Shown: positions 39,639 through 62,414 of the stretch, piece after piece
How positions within the stretch are numbered: position 1 is the stretch's first letter
How the letters are laid out: each line of letters starts with the position of its first letter
NCBI GenBank assembly: GCA_002844335.1
Contig: CP019154.1
Location: 1,984,001-2,048,000 of the forward strand
Reading direction: 5' to 3'
Length of the DNA stretch: 64,000 nt
DNA from: Haloarcula taiwanensis
GTDB lineage: Archaea > Halobacteriota > Halobacteria > Halobacteriales > Haloarculaceae
Notes under the pieces: generated by a model
Seen by the model: the letters and a program-made list of their open reading frames with translations, nothing else
The model's database searches: none
Told to the model about the DNA's origin: nothing
Position numbers and translations under genes: made by a program

Positions 39639-40199
39639 TCAGTCACTACTTCTGAACGGAGACGCGGACCCGAGGATGAGAACGAAAAGGTGAATCCCAA
39701 CGAGTCCGGAAAGCAGTACGGTTCTAGCTGTCGGTGGACTCGCGACTGCGGCCCCGCCTATCGCCACCGTCAGAACACTCACGATGGTCTCTGCCCGAAG
39801 ACTCTCGGCTGCCTGTTCTCTGGGCGTGCGGGCCGCTTCGAACTGGTCCCTGATAGCGTCAAATCTGGGGCCCTGACAGACACGTTTCCGGTCTTGCTCG
39901 TACTCTACCAGCCCGACAGCGTCGAGTTTGGGCAGGTGAGTCTGACAGAGGGAGATGTACACACTGTCGTAGAGTTCGTCACTATCGGTCTCTGCATCGG
40001 CGACGGCCCGCGCCACCTGTTTGCCCAGCGTACTGACAGAGAGCGCCGTCCCGTGTTCAGCAAGGCAGTACAGGCATGCGCGGCGGCGCTCGTTACCGAG
40101 AATATCGAATAGGGTTGCGCCATCGAGGTCGTTCTGCGCTGGCGGCGTAGTCTTTTTTCCGGTATCAACGACGGCGTCGGGCCCTACTGCCGGTCGCAT
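39639..40199 (-). CDS. DUF7344-type winged-helix protein with two C-terminal membrane helices
   Basis: The protein has 186 residues. The winged-helix part spans LFDILGNERRRACLYCLAEH, VYISLCQTHLPKLDAVGLVE and YEQDRKRV, the pattern of haloarchaeal DUF7344. Two hydrophobic helices follow (AETIVSVLTVAIGGAAVA and LLSGLVGIHLFVLILGSA). It is probably a membrane-tethered DNA-binding protein. A longer paralogue lies 55 bases upstream on the same strand. Confidence 0.8.
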   Translation of the reverse strand: MRPAVGPDAVVDTGKKTTPPAQNDLDGATLFDILGNERRRACLYCLAEHGTALSVSTLGKQVARAVADAETDSDELYDSVYISLCQTHLPKLDAVGLVEYEQDRKRVCQGPRFDAIRDQFEAARTPREQAAESLRAETIVSVLTVAIGGAAVASPPTARTVLLSGLVGIHLFVLILGSASPFRSSD

Positions 40200-40253: not shown

Positions 40254-40964
40254 TTACATCTCCGTATCGAGAGCCGCTCGTAGACGGTCTGAAAGCGACC
40301 GCGACCCCATCAGTGAGAGCCGATGGATCACCGCCAGTGCTACAAATACCACGCTCACGACGAGTGCGACTGCGACACCTGACACTGTAGTCCCGCTGAG
40401 TGCGAGTCCACCGACTGCAACCAGTGTGGCACACGCAGTCCCGAGATACCGACCTGCCCATCGCTCATCGGCAGGCGTGTGGGCCCCGGGCCGGTCGTGG
40501 TCAGTTACACCGGCCGACAGCGTCGACTCCGCAGGCGGCGTCGACAGAAGTGATGGTTCCGCAGCGAGATACTTATCAAAGGAGTTCGCGAGCGCGGTCG
40601 CTTCGACGAGTCCTCGATCTTGGTTGTAGTTGATAACACCCGCATCGTCCATCTTTGGGAGGTGGGACTGGTACAGCGCGATGTAGACGCGCTGGCGCTG
40701 TTTCGAGCGCAGCGAGTCGATGGTGGTGTCGTGTTCCAGCGCCGCGATGTGTTCTGCGATGTCGCTCATATCGGCTGGCTCTTCGCCGGAGTGCTCGTGG
40801 AGGTACTTGAGGACTAAGCGGCGACGACGACACTGAAGGACATGGAAAATGTCGTCTCGGGTGAGGTTATCGTCAGACGAGGCGTCTCCAGACGATGACT
40901 CGTCTGTCGTGGACGCCTCTGCCTCGGCTGCTGTGGGTTCGGAAGTCGTTTCAGCTATCGACAT
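40254..40964 (-). CDS. DUF7344-type winged-helix protein with membrane anchor
   Basis: The protein has 236 residues. A low-complexity acidic and Ser/Thr-rich N-terminus (about 1-35) is followed by the winged helix DIFHVLQCRRRRLVLKYLHE, VYIALYQSHLPKMDDAGVIN and YNQDRGLVEAT. Two hydrophobic helices lie near the C-terminus (LGTACATLVAVGGLALSG and GVAVALVVSVVFVALAVI). It is a paralogue of the next gene, and the two may form an operon. Targets are unknown. Confidence 0.8.
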   Translation of the reverse strand: MSIAETTSEPTAAEAEASTTDESSSGDASSDDNLTRDDIFHVLQCRRRRLVLKYLHEHSGEEPADMSDIAEHIAALEHDTTIDSLRSKQRQRVYIALYQSHLPKMDDAGVINYNQDRGLVEATALANSFDKYLAAEPSLLSTPPAESTLSAGVTDHDRPGAHTPADERWAGRYLGTACATLVAVGGLALSGTTVSGVAVALVVSVVFVALAVIHRLSLMGSRSLSDRLRAALDTEM

Positions 40965-41434
40965 GTGACTTTTCCTTTTCCAGCGGCCGTCATATACCGG
41001 GTCGACTGTTCCGTCGGTTGCGACTGTTTCACCGATTTAGCCGGTCGGTAGTGACCGACTTACTCTGGACACAGGACAGTAAAAGTGGCTTCTGAAGGAC
41101 GAATACAGCCATATAGGTCGTTTCGCCCCAGCTATTGCTTTCCAGTACTGTTTCACGCACCGTACCGGATCGTTCCACCGTTTCGACAGCAACTAGTATG
41201 TGAAAAACCACACTCGTGCACCGTGGGAATTTCGCATGTCACGGGCCTATTCGACTGTTTTCGGGACGTAGAAGGCACAAAAGCCGGGAGTACGGTGACC
41301 TTTATCTGCCGCAGGGTGTTGTGCACATATTCCTGACCGCCGTGACGGCGGCGGACAGGTGCGCTTGGCGGAGATTTACCCATCTCTGTGCAGTGACGCC
41401 ACTACCGACCAAGCTATCCGGCCCGTGTGTCAGC
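40965..41434. other. Gene-free stretch between regulator genes
   Basis: About 470 bases without a convincing gene on either strand. It holds the upstream region of the DUF7344 gene and a GC-rich CCGCCGTgACGGCGG hairpin (about 41339-41355) that could end the transcript of the calcium-repeat regulator. Open frames here have low-quality codon choice and no family resemblance. Confidence 0.5.
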
Positions 41435-43138
41435 TTATCCGCCGGGCGTCGGCGGCTTGATATCGCCTGCGTGGGGCGAGTTCGCCGCCGGGGGCTTTGC
41501 CCGCTCCAGACAGATGAGGTTCTCCCTGCCGAGACGTATTTTTACGACTTCGTCTTCGTCCACCATCCGCGAAAGGAGGCGGCTAACCTTCGCTTTCGAC
41601 CAGTCCGTCGCCTCAACGATATCTGTCTGGTGCAGACGACCGTTCTCGGCTTGCAGCATCAGCTTCACGAGGTGCGCGTCAGGGGTGAGTTCCCGGTCAG
41701 CTTGCTCGAAGGCCTCAGCTGCAGTGTCCACGTCGATGTCTGCACTGTCGGCTTCGACCACCCTGTCCGTGGCGTCGATTTCACGGTTAATTTCGAGTAT
41801 CTCCCGATCCAGTTCGAGGTAGCGATAAATGAACAGTCTGGCCGCCGTGGAGAGCCTTATGACCCAGCCACGCCTGATCGCTGCGACTGTCAGCCCAGTC
41901 CCTATCAGGAACCCCAGTAGCGAACTCGTCACCCAGGCTGGCGTCAGAACGCTGTTCGGGTTCGTCCCCCAGGTGACTTCCTGTGGGTCGGTCAGGAAGT
42001 CACCGTCCGAATCGGACGCGAGCGGGTCCGTTCCAAGGGCCGAAACCTCGCGCCCGTCGCTGAGACCATCGCCATCCGTATCGACGGTGGTTGGGGACGT
42101 GCCGGCTGCCAGTTCTCTTCCGTCGTCGAGGCCGTCACTATCTGTATCACTCTCGGTAGGTTCGGTCCCCGATTCGAGTTCTGTTCCATCTGCCACCCCA
42201 TCACCGTCAGTGTCTGCGACCGTCGGGTCGGTGCCCAGGGCCAGCTCCCTGCCGTCAGCGACCTCATCAGCGTCGGTGTCGGCCTGTACCGGGTTCGTGC
42301 CGACCGCCAGCTCCCTGCCATCGACGACGCCGTCGTTGTCCGTGTCCGCGTCGGTCGGATCGGTCTCGCCAGACGCCTCTCGCTGGTCGGACAGCCCATC
42401 GCCGTCAGTGTCCGCGACGGTTGGATTCGTCCCGAGTGCCAGTTCGCGTTCGTCTGCTAACCCGTCGCCATCGGTATCGGCCCGTCGCGGGTCGGTGCCC
42501 TGTTGGATCTCAGTCCTGTCGGCGACACCGTCTTCATCAGTGTCTGCGGCTGTGGGGGCCGTCCCGTGCTGGTGGACTTCTGTCCCGTCCAACAGCCCGT
42601 CGCCGTCAGTGTCGGCGTCAGTGAGGTTCGTACCCTGGACCACCTCGTGGCTGTTGTTGAGCCCGTCGTCATCAATATCACCGGTACGCTGAATCGGCTG
42701 CAGAGACACCGGTTGCCGATCTATCATGGTGTCGGTGCGCGTGTTGTAGAGAGAGACTGAGAGATCATCGATCCCCGTTGTCCCGGGAGTCGTGAGGGTC
42801 GTTGTTCCGTTCGGGCCGACCGACGTACAGTTCAAAGACCCGTTCGCGCGCGCACAGACCGAGCGGTTCTCCTGCGGCGAGCTAACGGTCACTGCGATCT
42901 GATACCCGCCGGGCCGCGCGCCGTCTATCCGTTCCCAGACGAACGCGGTTCCGTTCGGCCCGTGCGCAACAGCCTGTGTGGGACCAGCCGACTGTATCGC
43001 TGGCGCTGTTTCGTTGCCCGTCGCTGTGTCATCAGCATACTGCCCGGCGTCCGCTGCAGCAGCGACACCCACGGAGACGGACGCGACTGTCAAGAGGAGG
43101 AATAAAGCGCATATCCCGCTCACGATCCGGTGTCTCAT
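41435..43138 (-). CDS. Secreted calcium-repeat (TSP3) protein with membrane anchor and cytoplasmic winged helix
   Basis: The protein has 567 residues. A Sec signal peptide (about 1-28) is followed by a beta-rich domain (about 50-150) with several N-x-S/T sites. Then come 11 thrombospondin type-3-like repeats (about 153-395) of the form DTDGDGLxDGxELxxGTxP. A membrane helix lies near 398-420 (SSLLGFLIGTGLTVAAIRR). Inside the cell there is an acidic helical linker and a MarR-like winged helix (about 485-548, AHLVKLMLQAENGRLHQTDI and WSKAKVSRLLSRM). The layout predicts an outside calcium or wall-tension sensor linked to a DNA-binding domain in one chain. Repeat 7 reads DADEVAD and may not bind calcium. 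Its target genes are unknown. Confidence 0.85.
   Translation of the reverse strand: MRHRIVSGICALFLLLTVASVSVGVAAAADAGQYADDTATGNETAPAIQSAGPTQAVAHGPNGTAFVWERIDGARPGGYQIAVTVSSPQENRSVCARANGSLNCTSVGPNGTTTLTTPGTTGIDDLSVSLYNTRTDTMIDRQPVSLQPIQRTGDIDDDGLNNSHEVVQGTNLTDADTDGDGLLDGTEVHQHGTAPTAADTDEDGVADRTEIQQGTDPRRADTDGDGLADERELALGTNPTVADTDGDGLSDQREASGETDPTDADTDNDGVVDGRELAVGTNPVQADTDADEVADGRELALGTDPTVADTDGDGVADGTELESGTEPTESDTDSDGLDDGRELAAGTSPTTVDTDGDGLSDGREVSALGTDPLASDSDGDFLTDPQEVTWGTNPNSVLTPAWVTSSLLGFLIGTGLTVAAIRRGWVIRLSTAARLFIYRYLELDREILEINREIDATDRVVEADSADIDVDTAAEAFEQADRELTPDAHLVKLMLQAENGRLHQTDIVEATDWSKAKVSRLLSRMVDEDEVVKIRLGRENLICLERAKPPAANSPHAGDIKPPTPGG
41954..42682 (-). repeat. Tandem coding repeats (about 66 bp unit, 11 copies)
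   Basis: This is the DNA of the TSP3 repeat block. Each unit codes for about 22 residues beginning A-D-T-D-x-D-G. The copies have drifted in DNA sequence but keep the Asp codons and the Gly-Thr-x-Pro end. Copy number could change by recombination between units. Confidence 0.75.
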
Positions 43139-43244
43139 ACGGAACGGGTGTCACAGCGGAACAATATCCTTTTTGGCACATGATAGCCCTGTCACGTCTG
43201 GCCACACTTGATAATTCAGATATAATTATTTATTCTTTAGTCAT

Positions 43245-44003
43245 CTACTCATCAGATAGTCCAAGCTCCGACCCGACGACCTGATCCATCCCGCGCCGAA
43301 TCCGCTGTGACATCGCAGATGGTGAAATGCCGAGTTTGTCCGCCAACTCTGCTTGTGAGATGCCACGGGGAACGTCGAAGTACCCCTCGCTGTGTGCCGT
43401 CTCGAGTGCGACTTGCTGGTCTGCGGTTAGCCCGCATGCACCGGCATTGACTTCTCCGGAGGTCCAGTACAGTCGATCAAGTCGAAACGTGATATTCCGG
43501 TCAGAGCAGTCAGAGCGGAACTGTGACAGTGCCGCCCGCGACCGAAACTGGGCGTGTACCAGCCACTGTCCACTTGTCCCTTTGATATCGAGCGCCCGAC
43601 CACCGGCGCGGACGAGCGAGGGCGTGAGTCGAACGGCGCTGTCGGCCACCTCAACCCGATAGACGCGGTTCGTCTCCGTCCAGTCTAACACGACGGACTC
43701 GCATACCGTGCTATCCCTCTCCAGTTCTGTTTCGAACTGGTCGAGACCCTCACCGACGGCCTCTATCACCACGAAACTCGACGTACCGTCGTCGACCATC
43801 TGCTCCGGACGGACTGTTATGTCCGGACTACTCTCGACTGCCTCCGTCAGAACCAGCTCCGGATGACTCAGACACAGATCGACACCGAGGCTCTTCCCCC
43901 GTGATGTCTCACCCGTCTCTGATGGGCTCGCCGGCCCGTACCCAGCACCATCGACTGGCTGGTCCGCTTCGGCTGCTGACCCTTGGTCGCCGGTGTTGCG
44001 CAT
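43245..44003 (-). CDS. Bat-type (HTH-10) transcriptional regulator
   Basis: The protein has 252 residues. The C-terminal domain LTADQQVALETAHSEGYFDV, ISQAELADKLGISPSAMSQR and IRRGMDQVVGSEL is the bacterio-opsin-activator HTH. The middle part (VDLCLSHPELVLTEAVESSP and LDWTETNRVYRVE) matches the associated input domain of the family. The first 45 residues are low in complexity. The ATG at 44003 is favoured: a TATA-like CCTATAGC lies about 38 bases upstream. It is next to, and on the same strand as, the calcium-repeat regulator. Confidence 0.88.
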   Translation of the reverse strand: MRNTGDQGSAAEADQPVDGAGYGPASPSETGETSRGKSLGVDLCLSHPELVLTEAVESSPDITVRPEQMVDDGTSSFVVIEAVGEGLDQFETELERDSTVCESVVLDWTETNRVYRVEVADSAVRLTPSLVRAGGRALDIKGTSGQWLVHAQFRSRAALSQFRSDCSDRNITFRLDRLYWTSGEVNAGACGLTADQQVALETAHSEGYFDVPRGISQAELADKLGISPSAMSQRIRRGMDQVVGSELGLSDE

Positions 44004-44183
44004 ATGGACACCAGACGGATCGCGCACAAGCCTGTTACTGCTATAGGAATAGTGTATGGGAATCAGGATGCTATATTGATAGCCGAAGAAGGAGGTCGTG
44101 TCTTTTCCTGGTTATCAGTGCTTCGTTGAAGGACTGTCTGAGAACGGGGAAACGCTCACACTCTGCCGGAATAGATGTGTGAT

Positions 44184-45249: not shown

Positions 45250-46581
45250 CTAGGTAGCTGCAGCGTCTTCAGTGTCGTCGCTGCTAATAACCACCATGTC
45301 AAGGATGGTTTTGAGCCCGTATCCGGCGTAGAGGCTACCCACGACAGCCATCGGGAGGAGATATCTAGGGGACAGGTATAGGATAGCAAGAAGACACAGA
45401 TACGGAATCGTAGCAAACAGCGGGAAGAGTCGCTTATCGGTCGATTGTAACACAAGCACGACGAGTGCGACGAAAATGCTAGCATATAGCCATGCAACCA
45501 GCTCTATCGAAGGCCCAATGAGCCCCGTCCCGACAGTTAGCTCGCGATACATGAATGCGGCAGCGATGATGATAGCAATAGTTACCGGCAAGATGCGAGC
45601 GTACCGCACCCTTGGGAGAAGGGCCACAACTCCAATCAAAAAGAGTACCGGTAGAAGAGGGTTCACCAGTACGAACTCGAAGTAAGGAACACCCCAATGA
45701 AGAAAATGAGGCGCATAGAATTGGAGGTTCCGAACCGTATGTTCGAGTGGTGCATTCGACAAGCCGACGAAGAAGCCGGTCGAGAACAGCGAGGGCATTG
45801 AGACGAGTGTCCGAACGGTAACTACTGGTGAGTCCCCTGACGAGAGCTGATAAAGCAGTATGACTCCAACGAACCCCAGCAGTGGGCCGAGTACGAAGAC
45901 GTGGCGAAACCTGTCTTCAGAGAACGCATAGAGTCCGGCGAGCGGAGCAAGGAGAAGAAACAGGTATTCTAGACGCATAAAAAATACGATGATTCCGACG
46001 GCCGCTCCGGCCACGTACCTTCGACTAACGAAGAAGTATAGGCTGAGAGTGAAAAAACAGACAGCAATCGGTTCTGTGTAAGCCCACCACGAGAAGTTGA
46101 TGTGAAGCGGCGTAACTGCGAGGACGAATCCGGCGGCGTGACCTGCCCGGGGAGAATCAAACAGCACAGTGGCTGTTCGACCGACGAGCCACACCGTTGC
46201 CAAAGACGCCACAAACGACGCGAGGTTTCCACCCATTTGGCCAAAGAGCCCGAGAAACAGCGCCATGATGGCTTCTACACCGATGTGTCCGGAAATTGTG
46301 ATCTGGCCCTCAAGCAGGTTGAGTGCTCTCCCGACGTATACTGAGGAGTCGTCGTGGACGGGTTTCAATACCGTGTACGGGAGCCGAACGAGTATGCCGA
46401 CGAGCAGGATAGCGAACCACGCCCGACTCCGGCAGAGGAGGGCTGCACCGCTGAACAGAATAAGGAGGGTGAGTACGATTGAGATTAAGGTAAGCACCGC
46501 TGTCAAACCCCAAACGGCGAGAATCATACCGACTGCCATCGCCACTCCGGCTCCCATCGCCATCGTAGCGCCCTGACGCAT
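45250..46581 (-). CDS. Polytopic GT-C-like glycosyltransferase membrane protein
   Basis: The protein has 443 residues with about 10-12 hydrophobic helices. The first outside loop reads RLPYTVLKPVHDDSSVY followed by GRALNLLEG, which resembles the acidic motif loop of ArnT/PMT-type GT-C enzymes; SWWAYTEPIAVCFFTLSLYF is also typical of the group. Such enzymes use polyprenyl-linked sugars outside the membrane. It is the first gene of the glycan island. The exact donor and acceptor cannot be read from sequence. Confidence 0.75.
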   Translation of the reverse strand: MRQGATMAMGAGVAMAVGMILAVWGLTAVLTLISIVLTLLILFSGAALLCRSRAWFAILLVGILVRLPYTVLKPVHDDSSVYVGRALNLLEGQITISGHIGVEAIMALFLGLFGQMGGNLASFVASLATVWLVGRTATVLFDSPRAGHAAGFVLAVTPLHINFSWWAYTEPIAVCFFTLSLYFFVSRRYVAGAAVGIIVFFMRLEYLFLLLAPLAGLYAFSEDRFRHVFVLGPLLGFVGVILLYQLSSGDSPVVTVRTLVSMPSLFSTGFFVGLSNAPLEHTVRNLQFYAPHFLHWGVPYFEFVLVNPLLPVLFLIGVVALLPRVRYARILPVTIAIIIAAAFMYRELTVGTGLIGPSIELVAWLYASIFVALVVLVLQSTDKRLFPLFATIPYLCLLAILYLSPRYLLPMAVVGSLYAGYGLKTILDMVVISSDDTEDAAAT

Positions 46582-46781
46582 TCATTATCGATTAGAATGT
46601 CGCCGTATAAACTCTATCGAAAGAGATTACTCCCTTCTCGCGATATTCGGCGACCCTGCGTAGTGCTGACGGATGGGAAACCCGGTATCATCAGTCCTCT
46701 GGTTAGAAGCATAGCCAAATGTGAGGATCTCAAAATATATGACCTATTGAGCATAAAGGAGTTCGTAATCAGTTCGAACAC

Positions 46782-47732
46782 ATGCAGCCGACTAAAATCA
46801 CCACACTGATTTCAGAGGAGCTGCGGGACGCGTACATTGCGCTGTGGGCCTCGCTCACTTCCCGATACCCAGTTGGGGCGAATGTCTTTGAGCGAGACTG
46901 GGATGCGCTCATCATACTCGACACCTGCCGTGTAGACGCACTGAAAGAGGTTGCAGATGAGTACTCGTTTTTGTCAGATATCGATTCGATAGTTTCTGTT
47001 GGGAGCACCAGTCGAGAGTGGGTCGCAAACACGTTTCGCACAACGTATACGAGCGAGATTCGTGGAACGGCCTACGTTTCAGCGAACGCCTTCTCGAAGC
47101 GAGTTCTCAAAGATCGTAACTTCCCGGCTGACCGGGCACCAGTGAACTGGAAGGTGGCGGATGCAGACGACTTTTTGCTTGTAGACGACGCGTGGCAGTA
47201 TCAGCCCGAGCACCCCTACAAACACATGCTCCCCGAACATTTGACCGACCGCGCTATCACGGTCGGCCGCGAACTCCAGCCAGACCGACTCATTGTCCAC
47301 TACTCGCAACCCCACTCACCGTACATCGCCATGGCGAGGCGTGAAGGACGGGAACTGAAACCATGGGAATCGAATCCATTCAAATGCCTTCGAGCCGGAA
47401 GTGTAGAGCGAGAGACGGTCTGGAACGCGTATCTCGAAAATCTCAGGATGAGTCTTGACTCCGTTTCGGTGTTGCTTGAGAATCTGAATGCCGAGCGCGT
47501 CGCAATTAGCGCGGACCACGGCGAAGGATTCGGCCGCTGGGGAACGTACAAACACCCCCTCGGAAGCCTCCAACCGAACGTGAAATGCGTCCCATGGGCG
47601 ACTACAACTGCACGTGACAGAGGCGAGTACGAACCCAAGTTCAAACCGAGGGTTACTGGCGAACAAGGTGACAAGGACGAATTTGAACGAAAGGAGACAG
47701 TCGAACACCTTCGAGACCTCGGTTACCTGTGA
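46782..47732 (+). CDS. Soluble sulfatase-like protein (alkaline phosphatase superfamily)
   Basis: The protein has 316 residues without signal peptide or membrane helix. ERDWDALIILDTCRVDALKE holds the first metal-binding Asp. SVGSTSREWVANTF is the likely nucleophile region (Ser/Thr rather than a clear Cys-x-Pro-x-Arg sulfatase site). HYSQPHSPYI and ISADHGEGFG supply the remaining metal ligands. It lies between a GT-C-like protein and a convergent paralogue. It may transfer or remove a phosphate or sulfate group on a glycan; direction and substrate are unknown. A TATA-like AAAATATATG lies near 46730. Confidence 0.8.
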   Translation: MQPTKITTLISEELRDAYIALWASLTSRYPVGANVFERDWDALIILDTCRVDALKEVADEYSFLSDIDSIVSVGSTSREWVANTFRTTYTSEIRGTAYVSANAFSKRVLKDRNFPADRAPVNWKVADADDFLLVDDAWQYQPEHPYKHMLPEHLTDRAITVGRELQPDRLIVHYSQPHSPYIAMARREGRELKPWESNPFKCLRAGSVERETVWNAYLENLRMSLDSVSVLLENLNAERVAISADHGEGFGRWGTYKHPLGSLQPNVKCVPWATTTARDRGEYEPKFKPRVTGEQGDKDEFERKETVEHLRDLGYL

Positions 47733-47772
47733 AATGGATTCTCGCGGTTCGGTCAGTCCCTGTCAATCTCGA

Positions 47773-48675
47773 TTAGTTCGTGTAGCCAAGGCTACGCAGT
47801 CGCTGTTCAACCACGTCATGCTTAATTTCTTCGTCGCCACTCTTCGACGACCCGGAGGTCACATCTCGTCGCTCACCCTGTTCGTGGACTAGCCACGGCA
47901 CACGTACGAGTTCGTCGACGTATGTTCCGTGTGGGTGTCCCCAGCCCGAAACCGGTACCGGATATAATCGTTCTCCCAGTAGCTCTCCGTGGTCCGCAGT
48001 GACAACGGTCTTTCCGTCAAGCCCCTCGAGTAAGTCAGTTACGTGCGGAAGCGTAATGTCAACGTTCCGTCGGTACGCCTCACGCAGCGTCGAGGCGTCC
48101 ACCGATAGCTCTCCGCTGATGAACTGTCGGTACGTGTTTCGGTCAGTATTCAGTTTCTCGGTCGGTCGATCGAGGAAGGGAGTGTGGGGCTGGATGTAAT
48201 GCACCAGTAGCCGCTTGTTCGGGTACTGCTCGGCGGCTTGGAGTGCGTGCTCGGTGGTCGTTTCGGGGCGCACGACCTGTCGTCCACCATCGTGCCATAC
48301 GTTCGAATCATCGCTCCAGATGTTAACAACCTCGTGAAACGTCGCGTTGAGTTCGTCTTCGAACCGGTAGTACTGCGGCGTTGCGGTAACATAAACCGTG
48401 TCACGCAAGTCTCGGTCTGTGAAATTCGCTCGGAGGAATTCGTATGTTTGTGACCCCTTAGAAACCCGTGACTCCAAGTTACCGGGGAGTTCATCCCGGT
48501 CTACGAGAGCATCGTACCGACAAGCGTCAAGAAGAACAAGTGAGTCCCAGTCCTCGTCAAAAATGTCGATTCCGTCAGGATTGGACTCTACTGTGTAAAG
48601 CCGTCTGTGATAGAGTCGGTTGGCTCGGAGGAGCCACTCGTGTAATCGACCACGGAACATCGACTTGAGCGTCAT
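47773..48675 (-). CDS. Soluble sulfatase-like protein, paralogue of the neighbouring gene
   Basis: The protein has 300 residues. FDEDWDSLVLLDACRYDALV, SKGSQTYEFLRANF, HYIQPHTPFLD and VVTADHGELLGERL match the convergent paralogue position by position. The C-terminus HDVVEQRLRSLGYTN also resembles the other one (VEHLRDLGYL). The ATG at 48675 is chosen because the GTG that opens the longer frame (48729) touches the TATA-like TTTTAAG, so it would lie upstream of the transcript. No membrane segment is seen, unlike typical phosphoglycerol transferases. Confidence 0.8.
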   Translation of the reverse strand: MTLKSMFRGRLHEWLLRANRLYHRRLYTVESNPDGIDIFDEDWDSLVLLDACRYDALVDRDELPGNLESRVSKGSQTYEFLRANFTDRDLRDTVYVTATPQYYRFEDELNATFHEVVNIWSDDSNVWHDGGRQVVRPETTTEHALQAAEQYPNKRLLVHYIQPHTPFLDRPTEKLNTDRNTYRQFISGELSVDASTLREAYRRNVDITLPHVTDLLEGLDGKTVVTADHGELLGERLYPVPVSGWGHPHGTYVDELVRVPWLVHEQGERRDVTSGSSKSGDEEIKHDVVEQRLRSLGYTN

Positions 48676-49401
48676 TACCTTCTCTGTTGGAACACTACAA
48701 CCGACGAATATAGTTGTGATGGTATCCACTTAAAAGATAAGTAGCAATTGCCCTTCGGCATCGATTCGTAGACTGGTGTCCGACGGCACAATATCTTGTC
48801 CGCATGCCATAGATGAGAGCTTTCAAACGGTCAGGCCGTCTTTTGAGCCTGATATCCTCCTGGAGTGGGTATCGGGCGATAAGTATTCGTGGTTCTATCT
48901 TGGCCTCGACCGTTGCTCACATCTTAGCTATATCCCCTCCCATTTAGACAGCGTTCACGACCGCTGTTCTTGTATACCGGCGGCCTTCGATAATCGCTCT
49001 CGAAGGAGACTAAGCATTATTCGGCTCGGTCGTGTCTTGGAAGCACATGGTTCAACGAGGCCCAACAAATCTGGTCGGTTCTGGTGAGGGACAAGAGCAT
49101 CGTTGAGCGGTATTCCGAGTGTCCTAAACTCACCGCTGGCATCTGACTGGCGTAAGTGGTGCTTCGTCAGGCTCAGACAGACCAGACTCGCCGGGAGTAA
49201 CGGCCTGAGTAAGTCACGATGCGAAAAGGAATCGAAGTACAACATTAAAAACGTTTGAAACAAATTACTCTGGCTCGACATAAAAATTTCATTCGAAAGG
49301 TGGGATTCTGCACCACGGCCATTGTGCGGATAGTTCGTAGATTGGTCGGTCGATGATGAAGTTTCGGCAATCCTTTACTCGAGTCGTCGAAACGTAGACC
49401 T
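48676..49401. other. Gene-free stretch with sulfatase promoter
   Basis: About 725 bases. At the left is the TATA-like TTTTAAG (forward-strand 48730-48736) of the sulfatase-like gene. The rest has only short frames on both strands with poor codon choice and no family resemblance. It is probably decayed sequence between two island operons. No terminal inverted repeats were seen. Confidence 0.4.
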
Positions 49402-50544
49402 GTGACTGAGCCGTATCGTGTCCTCCACCTCATCACTCGGTTTCTCGATGGCGGTGCAGAGAAGAGCGTCGAACAAATCCTCTCGGCGCTTCGGACCGCA
49501 CCAGAGCAGTACGACCTACGAGTCGGTGTCGGCGCGGAACATGCTTCCGAGCGACTTGATGCTCTCCGGGAGAGAGGAATCGACGTCACTGTGTTCCGGG
49601 CGATCAGACACTACAACCCAGTAACTGCACTTCCGGCGGTCCTGTGCGTCGCACGGTATCTCAAACACGAACAGATAGATATCCTCCACACACATAGCAC
49701 AGAGGCAGGCGTGATTGGACGCTGGGCGGGCGCCCTTGCAGATGTCCCAGTCACTATCCACAGCGTTCACGGTGACCCAATCGCAAGCGACCGGAACCCG
49801 CTGTTGAACGCCACACTCTACGTCTTCGAGCGCGCGAGTGCACCGCTGAGCGACCGCATAGTCACCAACTCAGTGAGGGTTCGTGACACCTATCTCGACC
49901 GCGGGTTTGGTCATCCGGACCAGTACGAGGTCATCTACGACGGTCTAGACTTAGACGCATATCGCGTTCCGGACCGGTGGGATAACCTGCCATCCGCCGA
50001 TGAACCAGTTTCGCTACTTTTCGTCGGCCGACTAGCGGACGGCAAGGGCCTGTTCGACCTGATAGAGGCAGTCGATCAGGTCGCCGGAGAGCATCCGGTC
50101 AAGTTAGATATCGCGGGCGAAGGAGAAAGCCGAGAAGAACTACAGGATGCGGTCAAGCGACGTGGGCTTGAAGACAACATCTCATTTCTCGGCTACTGCG
50201 ACGATGTTGCCCGGCTCCTCGCCACGGCGGATGTCTTCGTACTCCCCTCCTATCGTGAGGGAATGCCCCGCGTCGTCACCGAAGCCCGTGCTGCCGGGTT
50301 GCCGGTCGTCTCGACGACTGTCGCAGGAATCCCCGAACAGGTTTCGCATGGCGAAACCGGATTTCTAGTCGAGCCGGGTGACATCTCAGAACTGAGCGCC
50401 CGCATCGGGCAACTCGTCGCATCACCGTCGCTCCGGCGTAAGATGAGCAAACAAACTACCGCCGACCTCAGCCGATTTACGCTCGAAAACATGGAACAGT
50501 CGTACCAATCGCTCTACCGCGATTTGGTGGACAGTATCTCTTGA
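49402..50544 (+). CDS. GT4-family glycosyltransferase
   Basis: The protein has 380 residues and a GT-B fold. The N-terminal domain shows FLDGGAEKSVEQIL (glycine-rich acceptor loop), HTHSTEAGVIGRWAGAL and SVHGDP. The C-terminal domain shows LLFVGRLADGKGLFDLIEA and the E-x7-E motif EGMPRVVTE, which binds the nucleotide sugar. It starts at a GTG (TEPYRVLHLITRF). It is cytoplasmic and probably adds one sugar to a lipid-linked glycan. Its last 31 bases overlap the end of the convergent glycosyltransferase. Confidence 0.92.
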   Translation: MTEPYRVLHLITRFLDGGAEKSVEQILSALRTAPEQYDLRVGVGAEHASERLDALRERGIDVTVFRAIRHYNPVTALPAVLCVARYLKHEQIDILHTHSTEAGVIGRWAGALADVPVTIHSVHGDPIASDRNPLLNATLYVFERASAPLSDRIVTNSVRVRDTYLDRGFGHPDQYEVIYDGLDLDAYRVPDRWDNLPSADEPVSLLFVGRLADGKGLFDLIEAVDQVAGEHPVKLDIAGEGESREELQDAVKRRGLEDNISFLGYCDDVARLLATADVFVLPSYREGMPRVVTEARAAGLPVVSTTVAGIPEQVSHGETGFLVEPGDISELSARIGQLVASPSLRRKMSKQTTADLSRFTLENMEQSYQSLYRDLVDSIS

Positions 50545-51644
50545 TAGATTGTCGCTACTTCTTCGACCATCCTATCGACCGTGAACTTCCTGTCGAGCCG
50601 TTCCCTCCCGGCTTCGCCCATCGATTCGGCCAGTTCTCGGTCCTCAAGCAGGGTTGAGATAGCATCGGCAAACTGCGTCTCGTCTGTCGGGGGACACAGC
50701 AGTCCAGTCTTGCCGTCTGCGACCACTTCTGGGATGGCACTCACTTCAGATGCGACGACGGGTGTCTGGGCGGCCATCGCTTCGAGAAACACAACGCCAA
50801 AGCCTTCCCACCGCGATGGCAGTGCGAACACGTCAAATGCGTGCATAAGTTCGGGAATGTCAGTCCGAAATCCGGCGAATGTCACGGCGTCCGCAATACC
50901 GAGAGTGTCTGCAAGGCGTATCAAGCGGTCTTCTTCCTCGCCGCGTCCAACGATAGCGAGATGTGCGCCCGGCACCCGGTCTCTGACTTGCTCGAACGCG
51001 CGGAGAAGCGTTTCCAGATTTTTCTGCTCAGTGAGTCGAGCGACGGTTCCAACGAGTGGCTTATTATCGTCGACAAATTCTCGCCGTACCGATTGGACGT
51101 CACTCTCAGATACGTCTTCGAAGTCCTTTAGCGAGAACCCGTATCGGACCGTCTGAACTCGATCTGGGCTGACATTCGAGGTTTCAAGCAAGTAGTCACG
51201 GACATGTTCAGAAATTGGGAGAATACGGTCGGTACGAGACAGCGACAGGTCGTGTACTAGCTTGTGCGGTTGGTCCTGCCAGTATGGTGGATCGTTATGC
51301 TTCGAGGAGACGATAGCTGGAACTCCAGCAACAGTTGCGGCTGTCGCGCCGTATACGTCACCGTGAAAGAGGTGAGTGTGGACAATGTCGTAATCGTTTC
51401 GAGCTATTTTTGCGACGAGTCTCCCGAGCCCGAGTGGGTCCAAGTCCGACCGGATACCAATTCGCTCAACAGAGCAGCCTGCTTCTCGGAAGTCGTCCGC
51501 GAGTTCGCCGTCGCCTTTCAGATATGCTACGGTAACGTCAAACTCCCGTGAGGCGAGTCCGTCAAGAAGCATCAGAAGGTGATTCTCTGCGCCGCCGACA
51601 TCGATACCAGAAATAACATGGAGAACGCTCGGTGTATCTGTCAT
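50514..51644 (-). CDS. GT4-family glycosyltransferase
   Basis: The protein has 376 residues. HVISGIDVGGAENHLLMLLD is the N-terminal loop, HTHLFHGDVYGATAA follows, and the C-terminal domain has VGTVARLTEQKNLETLLRAF, FALPSRWEGFGVVFLEAMAA (E-x7-E) and VVASEVSAIPEVVADG. It converges on the previous glycosyltransferase with a 31-base overlap of the two ends. Sugar specificity cannot be read. Confidence 0.92.
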   Translation of the reverse strand: MTDTPSVLHVISGIDVGGAENHLLMLLDGLASREFDVTVAYLKGDGELADDFREAGCSVERIGIRSDLDPLGLGRLVAKIARNDYDIVHTHLFHGDVYGATAATVAGVPAIVSSKHNDPPYWQDQPHKLVHDLSLSRTDRILPISEHVRDYLLETSNVSPDRVQTVRYGFSLKDFEDVSESDVQSVRREFVDDNKPLVGTVARLTEQKNLETLLRAFEQVRDRVPGAHLAIVGRGEEEDRLIRLADTLGIADAVTFAGFRTDIPELMHAFDVFALPSRWEGFGVVFLEAMAAQTPVVASEVSAIPEVVADGKTGLLCPPTDETQFADAISTLLEDRELAESMGEAGRERLDRKFTVDRMVEEVATIYQEILSTKSR

Positions 51645-52175
51645 TGTCGCCTGATTTCTAGTGTTCTACCAAAGGTGTACTGACTTTGGCTTCCTCCGGC
51701 CACGAGCCAAGTTTGACCGGCCGCTCGCATATCTGTTCGCTGAGTTATCTATTGCCCAGTAGCTCACCACGGGTAGTGGCCACGAGGAATCCCGCTCCCC
51801 GGCATTGAGTCGCTGACCAATTCGGTAGTTGACCGACGCACGCGTCGGCATCGTCGAGTTCGTTGTCGTACAGTGTGCGGATAATGTCCCAACTCTTGCT
51901 CAATGCACTCGTACCGATAAGATACCATATATTTCGTTCTATTTTCGTTCAATGTCGCGTGGTCTCTGCGTGCGCTATCGAGAATGGTTGAGATGACGTT
52001 CGGTAGCAGATAAGTATCAGTCCTCACTGGCGAGAGCGTGTTTAATTCGATAGTGCTTTTCTGGAGACTGGCCAGAGAAGGCGACAGGTTCTTGAACGGC
52101 CGTTACACGCTTTTCCGAGAGTTCCATCGCGAATAGAACGATATTTCAAGCGGGACAGACACTGTTCAGCCAACA
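51645..52175. other. Gene-free stretch between divergent glycosyltransferases
   Basis: About 530 bases. It must hold the promoters of both flanking genes, but no TATA box is clear enough to assign. Short frames on both strands, among them a minus-strand frame with ALSKSWDIIRTLYDNELDDA, may be remnants; none has a start or a family match. Confidence 0.35.
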
Positions 52176-53351
52176 GTGAAGGAGTCAGTCAGCGTATTGC
52201 TCGCCCCCGGTATCTTTCCACCCGATTCCGGAGGTCCAGCGACATTCGTCTCATCGCTTGGACGCGAACTCGTCAACCGGGGCCACTCTGTCCGCGTCGT
52301 CACGAACGGTCGTGCCTCGTCGGGGTTCGACGACCGGTTTCCGTTCAAAGTCGTACGCATTCCTCGTGGTGATTCCGTCGTCTTTAGATATGCCCGACAG
52401 ATTCGAACCCTCGTGGCCGAACTCCGGTCGTACGAACCGGACGTGATGTTGGTAAACGCGTTCGACTTGCAGGCGATAACTGCCGGGCGCATCGTGGGCG
52501 TCCCGACCGTCAGCAAAATCGTCGGTGACGCCGCATGGGAGCGGGCCCGCCGTTCCGGCGAGACCTGCAACGACATTGAGACGTTCCAGCAGTTCACTTT
52601 TAATCCGAAACTCGAAGGTTGGAAACTTCTTCGGACAGCGCCAGTTCGATTGGCAGACCACGTCGCGGTGCCAAGCAAGTTTCTCCGCTCACTCGTGACT
52701 GGGTGGGGAGTGGCTCCCGACCGGACGAGCGTCATCTACAATGCGATAGACATAGAGAGGCCGTCGATAACCGACTCCGATCGACCACCCCGAATCGTGA
52801 CCGTCGGTCGACTCGTCCCGTGGAAAGGGATAGGCGGAATCGTTGATGCTTTCGAACGAGCCGACGTACCCGACGCGGAGTTACACGTCATCGGTGACGG
52901 GCCTGAACGGGACACCCTCGAAGCGCACGCAGACAAACGGGGCGTGAGTGAGCAAGTTGTCTTTCATGGTCGCATCCCTCACGAACGTGTACTCGACATC
53001 GTCTCTCGTAGCCGCGTCTTCGCGTTAAATTCGACCTACGAGGGGCTTCCCCATGTTGTCCTCGAAGCGATGGCCTGCGGGACACCTGTCGTCGCGTCCG
53101 CGGTATGTGGCACTCCTGAGGCCATTACCGACGGCGAAGACGGGTTCCTCGTTGAACAGGACGACATTGAGGCGTTCTCTGAGCGGTTTGAGCAATTACT
53201 CTCGAACTCCTCGCTCCGGAGTCAACTCCGAACGCAAGCGTACAAGCGCCTCGAGAGCCAGTTTGAACACGAACAGATGGTCGCCGAATACGAGACCCTT
53301 CTGCGGAAGGTAGCCTCCGCGAGAGACGGCCACCGAAAAAAAAATGGCTAG
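52176..53351 (+). CDS. GT4-family glycosyltransferase
   Basis: The protein has 391 residues and starts at a GTG. VLLAPGIFPPDSGGPATFVS is the N-terminal loop. The donor domain has IVTVGRLVPWKGIGGIVDAF, HVIGDGPERDTLEA, VFHGRIPHERVLDIVS and NSTYEGLPHVVLEAMACG (E-x7-E), then TPVVASAVCGTPEAI. It begins a run of three same-strand glycosyltransferase genes: its end overlaps the next start by eight bases. Confidence 0.92.
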   Translation: MKESVSVLLAPGIFPPDSGGPATFVSSLGRELVNRGHSVRVVTNGRASSGFDDRFPFKVVRIPRGDSVVFRYARQIRTLVAELRSYEPDVMLVNAFDLQAITAGRIVGVPTVSKIVGDAAWERARRSGETCNDIETFQQFTFNPKLEGWKLLRTAPVRLADHVAVPSKFLRSLVTGWGVAPDRTSVIYNAIDIERPSITDSDRPPRIVTVGRLVPWKGIGGIVDAFERADVPDAELHVIGDGPERDTLEAHADKRGVSEQVVFHGRIPHERVLDIVSRSRVFALNSTYEGLPHVVLEAMACGTPVVASAVCGTPEAITDGEDGFLVEQDDIEAFSERFEQLLSNSSLRSQLRTQAYKRLESQFEHEQMVAEYETLLRKVASARDGHRKKNG

Positions 53352-54492
53352 GATACAGTACGTGGCAAACGCAAGGCTTCCGAGCCGGCGAGCACACGCC
53401 TATCAAATCGTCCAGATGTGCGACGCATTTACCGAGAACGGACACGAGGTTGAACTAGTCATCCCTGATCGCGTCCAGCCAGACGACGCGCCCGATTCAG
53501 TTGAGGAATACTTCGACTCACCTATTAACTTCGAAATAACACGACTGCCGTGTATCGATTTTCTCGGCAGTAGCTCACGCCAGCCGCTCCTCCGCTTCGC
53601 GTTCTACCTCCAGTCGATCACGTTCACACTCGCTGCGCTCGCGTACACGCTCAGATCCGACTGGGACTGGCTGTACTCCCGCGGACTTCTGTTCGCCGTC
53701 CTCGGTGCACCGTTGTTCGGCGATTCGCTTGCGGTCGAACTGCACCGTCGGCCTTCGAGAGACCGAGTCGCAGCACTTCTTGGACGGGCATTGGAGCACA
53801 CTTGCGGTGTAGTTGTCATCAGCGAGGGGCTCCGGGACGAGTGGCGCTCGTTCACCAATGCGCCGATGCTTGTCGCACCGGATGGTGTACGCCTTGACCG
53901 GTTCACAATCAAGCGCTCAAAGTCGTCACTTCGAACCGAGCTATCGCTCCCGGAGGGCGAGTTAGTCTGCTACGCCGGCAGCCTCAAACAGTGGAAAGGC
54001 GTCGATACATTGGTCGAAGCAGCTAAAGACATACCTGAAGTGACTGTCTGTCTCGTGGGCGGTACGGCCGCTCAGCAGGACCGACTTGAAACTGCTGTGG
54101 GGACAATGCCGAGCAATGTTGAGATGGTTGGACACGTCCACCCAGACCAGGTCCCGAAGTATCTCGCGGCCAGCGATGCGCTCGTCCTCCCGAACACAGC
54201 TGAAAGAGCTATCTCACGCCGGTACACCTCGCCGCTCAAACTGTTCGAGTACATGGCAGTCGGGCGACCGATAATCGCCACCGATATCCCGTCGTTGAAG
54301 GAAGTGTTGAACGACTCCAGTGCCTACTTCGCACCGCCTGACAGCTCCAGTTCACTCGCGCGTTCAATACGTCAGGTGTTGGACGACCCGGACGCAAGCA
54401 AGGTCGCACGCCACGCTCGAGAGGACGTCAAACAGTATACGTGGAAGCACCGAGCCGAGAGCATCGTTGATTTCCTACAGATAGGGGTCTGA
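53344..54492 (+). CDS. GT4-family glycosyltransferase
   Basis: The protein has 382 residues. MARIQYVANARLPSRRAHAY and IVQMCDAFTENGHEVELV form the N-terminal domain. A hydrophobic segment (LRFAFYLQSITFTLAALAYT) may lie on the membrane. The donor domain has YAGSLKQWKGVDTLVEAAKD, GHVHPDQVPKYLAASDALVL and TSPLKLFEYMAVGRPIIATD, the SPLKxFEYMA form of the donor site. Translation is coupled to the genes before (8-base overlap) and after (2-base gap). Confidence 0.9.
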   Translation: MARIQYVANARLPSRRAHAYQIVQMCDAFTENGHEVELVIPDRVQPDDAPDSVEEYFDSPINFEITRLPCIDFLGSSSRQPLLRFAFYLQSITFTLAALAYTLRSDWDWLYSRGLLFAVLGAPLFGDSLAVELHRRPSRDRVAALLGRALEHTCGVVVISEGLRDEWRSFTNAPMLVAPDGVRLDRFTIKRSKSSLRTELSLPEGELVCYAGSLKQWKGVDTLVEAAKDIPEVTVCLVGGTAAQQDRLETAVGTMPSNVEMVGHVHPDQVPKYLAASDALVLPNTAERAISRRYTSPLKLFEYMAVGRPIIATDIPSLKEVLNDSSAYFAPPDSSSSLARSIRQVLDDPDASKVARHAREDVKQYTWKHRAESIVDFLQIGV

Positions 54493-54494
54493 GC

Positions 54495-55541
54495 ATGCAC
54501 GTCCTAATGATCACACAAAAGGTAGATTCGACCGACGATATCCTCGGATTCACTGTCGACTGGGTCAGCGCACTTGCCGAACACGTTGAGAAGCTTGACG
54601 TACTAACAAGCTACATCGGCCAGTACGACCTCCCCAACAACGTTACGCTTTACAGCTTCGGGAAGGAGAAGGGATACTCGAAGGCGAGGCGGGTCCTCTC
54701 GTTCGAGCGACACTGTATCGAGGCCGTACGGCGAGGTATCGATGCGGTCTTCGCCCACATGATTCCACACTACGTTATTGCGGGCTGGCCATGGTTCAGG
54801 TCGGCAGGAGTTCCAGTTACGCTCTGGTACGCCCACAGCAGCGTCGAGTGGCATCTAAAGGTTGCACACCGGCTAGCCGACCGGGTAGTGACCGCGACCG
54901 AAGGTAGCTTCAGACTTCCGTCAGACAAGCTCTCGGTGCTCGGTCACGGTATCGACACCAATACGTTCGCGCCAAACGGTTCAAGCACCGACCGACGACT
55001 GGCTCTTGGCGTCGGCCGCCTTGATCCGGTAAAGCGGTTCGAGACACTTGTCGGTGCTATCGAGGTGCTCGATACCCGCGGTATCGACGCGAAACTACAG
55101 ATCGTTGGTGCACCGTCGGGTGACGAGGCGTATGTCGAAGAACTATACGAGACGGTTGAATCACAGGGGTTGACCGATTTGGTCGAATTCGTTGGAGCCG
55201 TCCCGCATGAGGAAGTCGTCCTGAAGTACCAGCGTGCGGGTGTCTTCCTCAATGATAGTGCGACGGGAAGTCTCGACAAGACGGAAGTCGAAGCGATGGC
55301 ATCCGGGACACCGGTCGTCTCCTCCAACGATTCATACGTAGATATGGTCCACGACTCGGACCTTAACGCCTCTCGCCTCACGTTCCCAAGTGGTGATCCG
55401 GCGGCGCTTGCCGACCGTCTCGAATCCATCTTTGAGTTGAACGACGCCGAGTACCGTAGCCTCTGTCAGCGGAGTCGAGAAGTTGCCCGTGACCGCCACG
55501 ACGTACGGGCCTTGATGTCGAATCTGGCGTCCAGACTCTGA
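54495..55541 (+). CDS. GT4-family glycosyltransferase with altered donor motif
   Basis: The protein has 348 residues. The donor domain has LALGVGRLDPVKRFETLVGA, KLQIVGAPSGDEAYVEELYE and EFVGAVPHEEVVLKYQRAGV. In the usual E-x7-E position it reads SATGSLDKTEVEAMASGTP, so the first Glu is missing while the second (EAMASG) is kept. The enzyme may use its donor differently or have reduced activity. It is the third gene of the + strand run. The N-terminus LMITQKVDSTDDILGFTVDW lacks the glycine-rich loop of its neighbours. Confidence 0.85.
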   Translation: MHVLMITQKVDSTDDILGFTVDWVSALAEHVEKLDVLTSYIGQYDLPNNVTLYSFGKEKGYSKARRVLSFERHCIEAVRRGIDAVFAHMIPHYVIAGWPWFRSAGVPVTLWYAHSSVEWHLKVAHRLADRVVTATEGSFRLPSDKLSVLGHGIDTNTFAPNGSSTDRRLALGVGRLDPVKRFETLVGAIEVLDTRGIDAKLQIVGAPSGDEAYVEELYETVESQGLTDLVEFVGAVPHEEVVLKYQRAGVFLNDSATGSLDKTEVEAMASGTPVVSSNDSYVDMVHDSDLNASRLTFPSGDPAALADRLESIFELNDAEYRSLCQRSREVARDRHDVRALMSNLASRL

Positions 55542-56175
55542 GAACCCTGCGAAGGCGGCTGAATCACTCGCTCACCGCGACGATACAGGTGTCTGTTCAA
55601 CCCCGGTTGAACAGAAACTCTGGAAGAGCGGTCAATCGAGGGCACGTCGGAGACCTAGATAGAGTGATACTTGGGCGGGTCCGTTCTTCAACACGGAATC
55701 CGTGACCATCAAACAGATGTGACAGCGAGAGCGGGGCTACAAGCTGGACATGGCCGTCCGCCTCGTGGTAGTGACCCTGGTCAGGAGAGTCCACTAGTAG
55801 GGAGTGTCGAAGGTAGCGATACAGGCCGAGCGGGTTCTTGTTAGATATGGCCGCCCGCCTGTTTCAAGAACAGTTGCGAGCTCTGGTATCGCGTCTCCAG
55901 GATTGGGCAAGCGTTCCGGTACCTCTGCAAAAACGACGCCATCGAAAATGCCATCTGCAAAGGACAGAGGAAAGAGGTCGTCTCTGATGGGCTCGCCAGC
56001 CGCCCGTTCCCCAACAGTCGGTTTTAAATCAGTTCCTACAATGTTGCATCAGGATTCGGCTATGCAACGCTTCGGCGTGCAGTATTTGTTTCACACTCGT
56101 CGACGAATCAAACGTCGAGTATGCGTTCACTCTCAGCGGTTTGTTCTATCCACTTCATACGAGGACTCTCAAAAC
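55542..56175. other. Intergenic stretch holding the methyltransferase remnant
   Basis: The gap between two glycosyltransferase genes carries the frameshifted methyltransferase and, further right (56049-56175), sequence that could be its lost N-terminus in another frame (minus-strand STSVKQILHAEALHSRILMQ). No intact gene is seen. Confidence 0.5.
55597..56048 (-). pseudogene. Frameshifted class I SAM-dependent methyltransferase
   Basis: Two minus-strand frames together read as one methyltransferase. The first runs from 56048: CNIVGTDLKP (motif I end, acidic loop), then LSFADGIFDGVVFAEVPERL and NPGDAIPELATVLETGG (motifs II and III). Near 55855-55862 the frame shifts, and the second continues ISNKNPLGLYRYLRHSLLVD, SPDQGHYHEADGHVQL and LSHLFDGHGFRVEERT down to the stop at 55597. 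The glycine-rich motif I itself is lost, with a stop just upstream. It was probably part of the glycan pathway or of another island gene set. Confidence 0.72.
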
Positions 56176-57324
56176 CTAGTATCTTCGTTCTCCACATAGT
56201 CCATCCTGCAAGAACTCTACGTACTCTTCAACCAGCCGCTCGGCGTCGAATCGCTCCATCAAGTGTTCCCGTGCCCGAGTGCCCATCTGTTGGCGTACGG
56301 TCGCGTCTTCGAGTAGCTCGCAGACTCGTCGAGCGAGCGTTTCCACGTCTTCAGCGACAAAGCCAGTTTCTCCGTCAACAATGTTATCCATTGCGCCTGC
56401 AAACGGTGTCGCGACGACCGGCGTCTCGTTCATGCCAGCCTCAACGACGACTCGGGAAGTGCCCTCATAGTCAGAGGTTATTAGAAACACGTCTGCGAGG
56501 TCGTAGTACTCCGCGAGGCGCTCGGTCTCTACCCATCCAGGGAACCGGAAGCTGTCCTCTATGCCGAACTCAGTGACCTGCTGTCGAACATTCTCGGACT
56601 GTGGGCCGTCACCCACCATGACGAATAGTGGCGTCCTGTTAGCCGCTTCGTGAACGATCGCGGCAACTTCGAGCCACTTATGCAAATTCTTTTGATCGGT
56701 GAACCGGCCCGCAAAGAAGATGACTGGGCGCTCGCCAAAACCGAAGGCCGACCGAAGTTCGGTCACCGACCGCTCACTACCACCGACAACCCCATCGAAG
56801 TCCATCCGAACCGGAGCGACCGAAACCCTGGTCGAGTCTTGGACGACCGAACTGACCTTTCTACGTTCGTGTTTAGTTCCAACTCGAACCGCATCAGCAT
56901 GCTTCAATACGATTCGGCCGAGCGCTTCCGCGAACGGGTTCTTCGCCGACTGCCACCGCCACTTTGGGTTAGATATGAAATCGGCGTGAACCTGCACCCG
57001 TAGCGACGCATCGAACTGTCGTGCAAGCGCGAGTCCAACGACGCCAGTTGAGAACGGATCCTGCGTTGTCACGCAATCAGGTGCCCACTCTTCGGCCGCC
57101 GTACGTCCGAGTCGGTAGGCGTCTATCAGAAAGTGATACCGTGTCGTCGAATTCGTGGGAATCACCCGTAGTGCCCCGTCCCGAATCTGCTTGTCGTGTT
57201 CTGAATCGGTTTTTGCCACAACAGTGTATCTGTCGAAATACTTGGCGTACCTCCGCTGTCGCTGGTGAGCGTCGCTCTCCGACAGCGCAATCGACTCGTC
57301 TAAACTTATTGAAAGTACGTGCAT
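56176..57324 (-). CDS. GT4-family glycosyltransferase
   Basis: The protein has 382 residues. The start MHVLSISLDESIALSESDAH is typical of one archaeal GT4 branch. TQDPFSTGVVGLALARQFDA lies in the N-terminal domain. The donor domain has VIFFAGRFTDQKNLHKWLEV, FVMVGDGPQSENVRQQV and ITSDYEGTSRVVVEAGMNE (E-x7-E). A flippase gene lies 57 bases upstream on the same strand, so flippase and transferase probably share a transcript. Confidence 0.92.
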   Translation of the reverse strand: MHVLSISLDESIALSESDAHQRQRRYAKYFDRYTVVAKTDSEHDKQIRDGALRVIPTNSTTRYHFLIDAYRLGRTAAEEWAPDCVTTQDPFSTGVVGLALARQFDASLRVQVHADFISNPKWRWQSAKNPFAEALGRIVLKHADAVRVGTKHERRKVSSVVQDSTRVSVAPVRMDFDGVVGGSERSVTELRSAFGFGERPVIFFAGRFTDQKNLHKWLEVAAIVHEAANRTPLFVMVGDGPQSENVRQQVTEFGIEDSFRFPGWVETERLAEYYDLADVFLITSDYEGTSRVVVEAGMNETPVVATPFAGAMDNIVDGETGFVAEDVETLARRVCELLEDATVRQQMGTRAREHLMERFDAERLVEEYVEFLQDGLCGERRY

Positions 57325-57381
57325 GCGTTCGATCTAACGACAGTAGTATCGGACTAGGATGCGCAAATAAATACGTGTTGG

Positions 57382-58842: not shown

Positions 58843-58847
58843 CGAAA

Positions 58848-60401: not shown

Positions 60402-60491
60402 TACCGCTAGCACTGGTTGCCGGCGAAAATACGTTCCGGAACCGAACCCGTTTCCAAAACCTATATTTTGCACTTCATCTCCACTCTGCTA

Positions 60492-60554
60492 ATGCAAGTC
60501 TACGTCCTCTCGGACTACTTTTCCCCTCACTCGACCGGCGGTGCTGGAAAATAG
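60492..60554 (+). pseudogene. 5' stub of a GT4 glycosyltransferase
   Basis: The ATG at 60492 opens only 20 codons: MQVYVLSDYFSPHSTGGAGK and then a TAG. This is a typical GT4 start (strand, then the glycine-rich acceptor loop), but no continuation is found in any frame downstream. The gene was cut off here by deletion or insertion. Confidence 0.6.
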
Positions 60555-62349: not shown

Positions 62350-62414
62350 AATAGATAGCTTCGGGAGGACGACTAAGACATTACGTTCTGCCGAGACCAC
62401 ATACGGTTCAGAAG

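Follow-up and report, generated by a model that had tools for sequence, protein, structure and literature searches.

Introduction

Regulators of the ToxR type carry their DNA-binding domain at the N-terminus of the chain and have no signal peptide. ToxR, CadC and TcpP are counted among the transmembrane transcription regulators (TTRs), which join in one chain a predicted DNA-binding domain and a membrane segment and most of which are single-pass (census in PMC10269533). In archaea, the studied membrane-bound one-component regulators are ArnR and ArnR1 of Sulfolobus acidocaldarius; they control surface structures, promoter binding has been shown for them, and they are built of an N-terminal HTH and two C-terminal membrane helices, with neither signal peptide nor stalk (PMC6396743). 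Haloferax changes its N-glycans when salinity changes, and why it does so has been described as unclear (PMC4022621).

Here we describe a gene found in a 64,000-nucleotide window of the Haloarcula taiwanensis genome (contig CP019154.1, positions 1,984,001 to 2,048,000), whose 567-residue product combines a TSP3-repeat ectodomain with a winged helix of the DUF7343 family. The protein contains both elements of the computational definition of TTRs (PMC10269533), namely a predicted membrane segment and a predicted DNA-binding domain, and is likewise predicted to be single-pass. It differs from the ToxR type by its leading signal peptide, its reversed domain order and its TSP3-stalk ectodomain, and the DNA-binding end of this predicted single-pass regulator would thus sit at the C-terminus. 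The layout of ArnR and ArnR1 is closer to that of the partner protein DUF7344, presented below, than to that of the TSP3 protein. The haloarchaeal DUF7345-TM-DUF7343 proteins share with it the signal peptide, an ectodomain, one membrane helix and the winged helix family, but their ectodomain is DUF7345, they lack TSP3 repeats and no DUF7344 partner was seen at 20 of their loci. TSP3 arrays are also present in the bacterial surface proteins CglD and MtsD; these are lipoprotein/adhesion proteins without a winged helix, and the 567-residue protein scores far below their NCBIfam cut-offs. No paper naming DUF7343 or DUF7344 was found in a literature search that could miss other names of these families. 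What is new here, as read from genome sequences, is the pairing of the TSP3-DUF7343 and DUF7344 genes, their glycan neighbourhood and a GNAACRGT candidate operator.

Results

Domain organisation and topology of the TSP3-DUF7343 protein

An initial annotation had read the chain as a signal peptide, 11 TSP3-like repeats, one membrane helix and a MarR-like winged helix. Both the coordinates of the open reading frame and this domain order were borne out by Pfam and hydropathy (Table 1). The TSP3_bac model matches with 169.3 bits for a cut-off of 25, and DUF7343 covers residues 489-544 (E 1.4e-22, 79.7 bits for a curated cut-off of 27.6). The MarR_2 match lies exactly on its cut-off (27 of 27 bits), and Pfam and AlphaFold2 identify the 60-residue winged helix alone, not a full MarR dimer fold with effector pocket. 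A regular expression for complete loops, DxDxD(G/E/F)xx(D/N)xxE, also counted 11 of them between residues 154 and 387, and positions D1, D3, D5 and E12 are kept in all 11.

Only two hydrophobic peaks were found by hydropathy, corresponding to the signal peptide and, at about residues 403-424, the expected single membrane helix. The RR pair following this helix predicts a cytoplasmic C-terminus by the positive-inside rule. The eight N-glycosylation sequons of the chain are confined to residues 1-171, leaving the predicted cytoplasmic part free of them. Between the signal peptide and the repeats, the initial annotation had overlooked a head domain, as it had the DUF7344 partner and the candidate operator. 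C95 of the head is nearly invariant, a second cysteine (C104) is present in most relatives, and sequons are found there. No Pfam model recognises the head (residues 1-163 searched), which is thus distinct from the DUF7345 ectodomain. Taken together, the 567-residue protein is very probably a membrane-tethered DNA-binding regulator, as predicted from its domains.

Table 1. Predicted features of the TSP3-DUF7343 locus; positions are those of the window.
Feature	Position	Strand	Basis and remarks
TSP3-DUF7343 transmembrane regulator gene	41435..43138	-	567 aa; ORF and Pfam; full-length orthologues known
Signal peptide	43052..43138	-	residues 1 to ~29; hydrophobic peak at residues 5-27
Head, Ig-like beta domain	42680..43009	-	residues 44-153; seven strands (AlphaFold2), aligned homologues
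11 TSP3 repeats, Ca-binding loops	41945..42679	-	residues 154-398; PF18884, E 1.2e-50
Membrane helix	41867..41923	-	about residues 406-424, then RR; hydropathy and AlphaFold2
C-terminal winged helix (DUF7343)	41507..41680	-	residues 487-544; Pfam, AlphaFold2, Foldseek
CCAAAAAGGATAT box	43164..43176	-	26-38 bp before ATG; kept in Haloarcula and in loci L026-L028
Distal repeat-core copy GTGAAACAGT	41147..41156	-	
Candidate operator of DUF7344 gene a	41003..41037	-	direct repeats AATCGGTGAAACAGTCG and AACCGACGGAACAGTCG, 17 bp long and 18 bp apart
TATA-like box GGTATATG of DUF7344 gene a	40991..40998	-	directly after the repeats; from sequence
DUF7344 gene a	40254..40964	-	PF24035, E 6.6e-29; N-terminal winged-helix-like domain and C-terminal membrane segment(s)
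DUF7344 gene b	39639..40199	-	PF24035, E 6.3e-24; present in part of the relatives
HTH_10 (BAT-type) regulator	43245..44027	-	directly upstream; adjacent in close Haloarcula relatives only
Surface-glycan island	45250..63350	.	seven group-1 glycosyltransferases, flippase-like protein, membrane protein, phosphodiesterase/sulfatase-like proteins

Structure models

AlphaFold2, run with seven sequences, gave a poor full-length model (mean pLDDT 52) in which head and stalk are of low confidence and the winged helix fares better. Residues 487-544 adopt the helix-strand-helix-helix-strand-strand order of a canonical winged helix with pLDDT 75-81, as expected for the C-terminal domain. The best PDB matches returned by Foldseek are MarR/ArsR winged helices; none reaches E 0.001, for which the length of the query and its mostly uncertain model are the probable reason. 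In the aligned TSP3 forms, the motifs WSKxKVSR and GREN of this domain are invariant.

Residues 44-153 were modelled, with modest confidence, as a seven-stranded Ig-like sandwich. A carbohydrate-binding module of the CBM56 type was considered for the head and rejected: the match was weak (E 0.058) and was not reproduced when the head alone was submitted, leaving an Ig-like assignment only. The enrichment of sequons in the head (3.1-fold) was similarly dropped as a sign of glycan self-sensing, since an equal enrichment in DUF7345 ectodomains (3.2-fold) means that it supports an outside location only.

Distribution of the family in haloarchaea

Five proteins of the genome match DUF7343 over the cut-off. 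Three others than the one studied here consist of a signal peptide, DUF7345, one membrane helix and DUF7343, so that the outside-to-winged-helix layout is that of a haloarchaeal family of which the TSP3 form is one variant. Full-length orthologues are present in about 15 Haloarcula genomes, mostly with 77-99% identity and down to 65%, and the layout is therefore no artefact of assembly or reading frame. When the head and first repeat were used as a profile, matches came from 91/391 sampled Halobacteria genomes and from 29 of 86 genera, a sample of one genome per species, read with a home-made gene caller and with loci picked through family matches. Among the relatives read, the order of head, TSP3 repeats, membrane helix and DUF7343 is nearly constant, and it occurs in many haloarchaeal genera. 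No relative was found in the viral contigs searched, and a viral origin was rejected. In a tree of the winged helix (80 columns, forks unresolved), TSP3 and DUF7345 forms lie largely apart.

Relatives paired with DUF7344 have anywhere between about 3 and 12 TSP3 repeats. One relative (L125) has the same layout with altered calcium ligands, DTSGNG and DTTGDG. A subfamily (L082, L084, L120, L121, L123, L139 and L142) has few repeats (1-4, counts differ; 1-2 in the uvrC-linked forms); most of its members adjoin uvrC, none has a DUF7344 neighbour, and it may have a different role. Two further sequences depart from the usual form. A TSP3-TM-DUF7343 protein (L083, 5593-6798) seemingly lacks the beta head, and the same genome has a headed copy (L140). 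In genome G324 (C2:278267-278530), the DUF7343-like match falls inside an open frame of 1607 residues, far longer than in relatives; the true gene is probably a frame of 374 residues.

Pairing with DUF7344

Two DUF7344 genes, each coding for an N-terminal winged-helix-like domain and hydrophobic C-terminal segment(s), lie downstream of the TSP3 gene in the window. Over all loci tallied, DUF7344 adjoins the TSP3-DUF7343 gene in 29 of 47 (14/25 genera and 6/8 families), and was found beside the DUF7345-TM-DUF7343 paralogues in 0 of 20. When equal 8-kb windows were compared, with TSP3 loci chosen through family matches and neighbours called by a simple script, DUF7344 was present in 19/34 TSP3 loci vs 0/20 paralogue loci (Fisher p 1.4e-5). 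The H. taiwanensis genome has 15 DUF7344 genes, so a random 8-kb window would contain one about 3% of the time. In the Haloarcula group the partner lies downstream of the TSP3 gene; at the other loci it is mostly found upstream.

A candidate operator at the DUF7344 promoter

The two direct repeats upstream of DUF7344 gene a share the core GNAACRGT. Seven of seven aligned Haloarcula sequences have TCGGTGAAACAGTCG...CGGAACAGTCG in common, immediately preceding the TATA-like box of DUF7344 gene a. Across the studied loci, GNAACRGT occurs upstream of DUF7344 at 4.80 per kb in forward and 0.69 in reverse orientation, vs 0.22 and 0.33 per kb at other genes, an approximately 20-fold forward enrichment that is biased upwards because the motif was found by eye in the same promoters and then counted. 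The pair in front of gene a is the unique intergenic pair in the genome. Genome-wide, one other N11-spaced pair turned up; it lies within a coding frame of a small replicon and was discarded; a looser pattern of the pair gave ten sites with two mismatches. No GNAACRGT was detected close to the remaining 13 DUF7344 genes of H. taiwanensis, three stray single copies lying farther off. Strand preference, conservation across families and this absence argue that GNAACRGT is a real site. That the TSP3-DUF7343 protein itself binds the repeats is conceivable, at somewhat less than even chances in our estimate.

Upstream of the TSP3 gene, the CCAAAAAGGATAT box is probably a core promoter element and possibly an autoregulatory site. 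The CCAAAAAGG box was tried as a regulon motif and rejected: it has one exact copy in the genome, and hence is at most autoregulatory or just core promoter. No RNA element was detected with Rfam in the 37-46 kb region of the window.

Surface-glycan genes around the locus

The initial annotation had placed the gene next to a glycan island. That very island was recovered in 1 of the 12 Haloarcula flanks examined; eight others have other glycan-type genes, some of them weak matches, and three have none. The link to surface glycans is broader than the island and extends over several families, and the earlier remark is a fair lead that, judging from these gene neighbourhoods, holds mainly at family level. 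At 13 TSP3 loci, from 7 genera and 6 families, glmS is a neighbour; it is not adjacent to the TSP3 gene in the Haloarcula loci. Further neighbours are AsnB-like proteins (10 loci), UDP-sugar dehydrogenase (9), DegT (7), MocA (7) and archaeal glmU (3), with GlmS and Arch_glmU matching above their NCBIfam cut-offs. Clustering of the neighbour genes showed that DegT occurs with MocA, and also recovered group-2 glycosyltransferases. The AsnB-like protein accompanies glmS in nine clustered loci, or ten by direct match; this amidotransferase-type protein (L075, 7775-9532, and relatives) has no Pfam match.

In equal 8-kb windows, 17/34 TSP3 loci vs 1/20 paralogue loci contain any of the listed glycan genes (p 7e-4), the lone paralogue case being one nucleotidyltransferase match. 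For glmS alone the difference is marginal (8/34 vs 0/20, p 0.02). Both DUF7344 and glycan genes are missing at some TSP3 loci, such as the uvrC-adjacent L120, L123 and L139. Upstream of most glycan genes GNAACRGT is not enriched, and their control by the pair is thus proposed from neighbourhood only.

The TSP3-DUF7343 site brings together several kinds of regulator. HTH_10 and TrkA were discarded as functional partners, being neighbours in Haloarcula only. Two convergent genes at the margin of the glycan island (46782-47732, + strand, and 47773-48729, - strand) encode related proteins of about 30% identity, the first of which has a weak sulfatase-family match.

Discussion

We lean towards reading the TSP3-DUF7343 and DUF7344 proteins as a pair of regulators that monitor the surface and are linked to the synthesis of envelope glycans, as predicted from domains and gene neighbourhoods. 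The signal peptide would send the N-terminal part outside, where the TSP3 repeats, loaded with calcium, would form a rod that keeps the Ig-like and probably N-glycosylated head at a distance from the membrane; the domains themselves are observed. Surface changes, with the S-layer or its glycans as their most likely site, might alter the contacts of the head or the oligomeric state of the chain, and the signal could be relayed through the single membrane helix to the cytoplasmic winged helix. The latter would act from the membrane with DUF7344, itself a predicted membrane-tethered winged helix and, given the conserved gene pair, a putative physical partner. Through the GNAACRGT direct repeats in front of DUF7344 the pair may control its own locus, and the neighbours suggest that it may also control nearby genes of amino-sugar nucleotide and surface-glycan synthesis.

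A role in the control of surface glycans or the envelope is, on balance, probable. The same associations could also arise by hitchhiking, if the regulator resided in glycan-rich genomic islands without controlling their genes: Haloarcula glycan loci are variable islands, most glycan promoters lack a shared repeat, and glycan genes occur in only half of the 8-kb loci. We consider this explanation rather unlikely, given that one gene order with glmS recurs in six families and that a single one of the 20 paralogue controls was positive. The initial annotation had proposed a sensor of outside divalent cations or of cell-surface state. Read as calcium sensing, low outside calcium would empty and refold the repeats and thereby switch the winged helix. 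TSP3 repeats bind calcium in known proteins, and the ligand positions are fully kept in this protein; but the repeat number ranges widely in DUF7344-paired relatives and falls to 1-2 in the subfamily, L125 retains the layout despite its altered ligands, and hypersaline habitats normally keep extracellular calcium loops saturated. The calcium proposal did not hold up well and is now improbable. The variable repeat number and the relative with lost ligands make the repeats look like a calcium-stiffened stalk, which is the likely interpretation.

Two other alternatives concern the cytoplasmic end. Winged helices can serve as protein-binding modules, and this one, which resembles DNA-binding domains by fold only, could scaffold DUF7344 or an envelope machine instead of binding DNA. 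Such a role is very unlikely considering the strict conservation of WSKxKVSR, which resembles a recognition helix, and of GREN in the wing, the best fold matches, which are DNA-binding repressors, and the conserved direct repeat at the partner promoter. Alternatively, regulated intramembrane proteolysis might release the winged helix once the ectodomain has been shed, and the winged helix would then act as a soluble regulator. The type I single-pass topology is compatible with this, haloarchaea possess rhomboid and S2P proteases, and a Haloferax mutant of the rhomboid gene rhoII has a truncated S-layer N-glycan (PMC9263693). However, neither a cleavage site nor a conserved protease neighbour was found, and the partner DUF7344 is also predicted to be membrane-tethered; release by proteolysis accordingly seems a poor prospect.

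Returning to the surface-monitoring pair, it might be extended to an outside-to-DNA circuit of two membrane-tethered proteins that is general to haloarchaea. The stalked, N-glycosylated head would read the state of the S-layer or of its glycans, with feedback on the genes for amino-sugar nucleotides and glycans and with no kinase cascade; we put this forward as speculation that is unlikely to hold in full. The finding bears on surface sensing in haloarchaea and on the way they change S-layer glycosylation. With a defined gene pair, a candidate operator and hosts open to genetic work, this can be put to a direct test. If the prediction is true, a reversed-order, stalked class would be added to the membrane transcription regulators, and if the circuit reading is also true, archaea would regulate their coat by direct surveillance of the cell surface.
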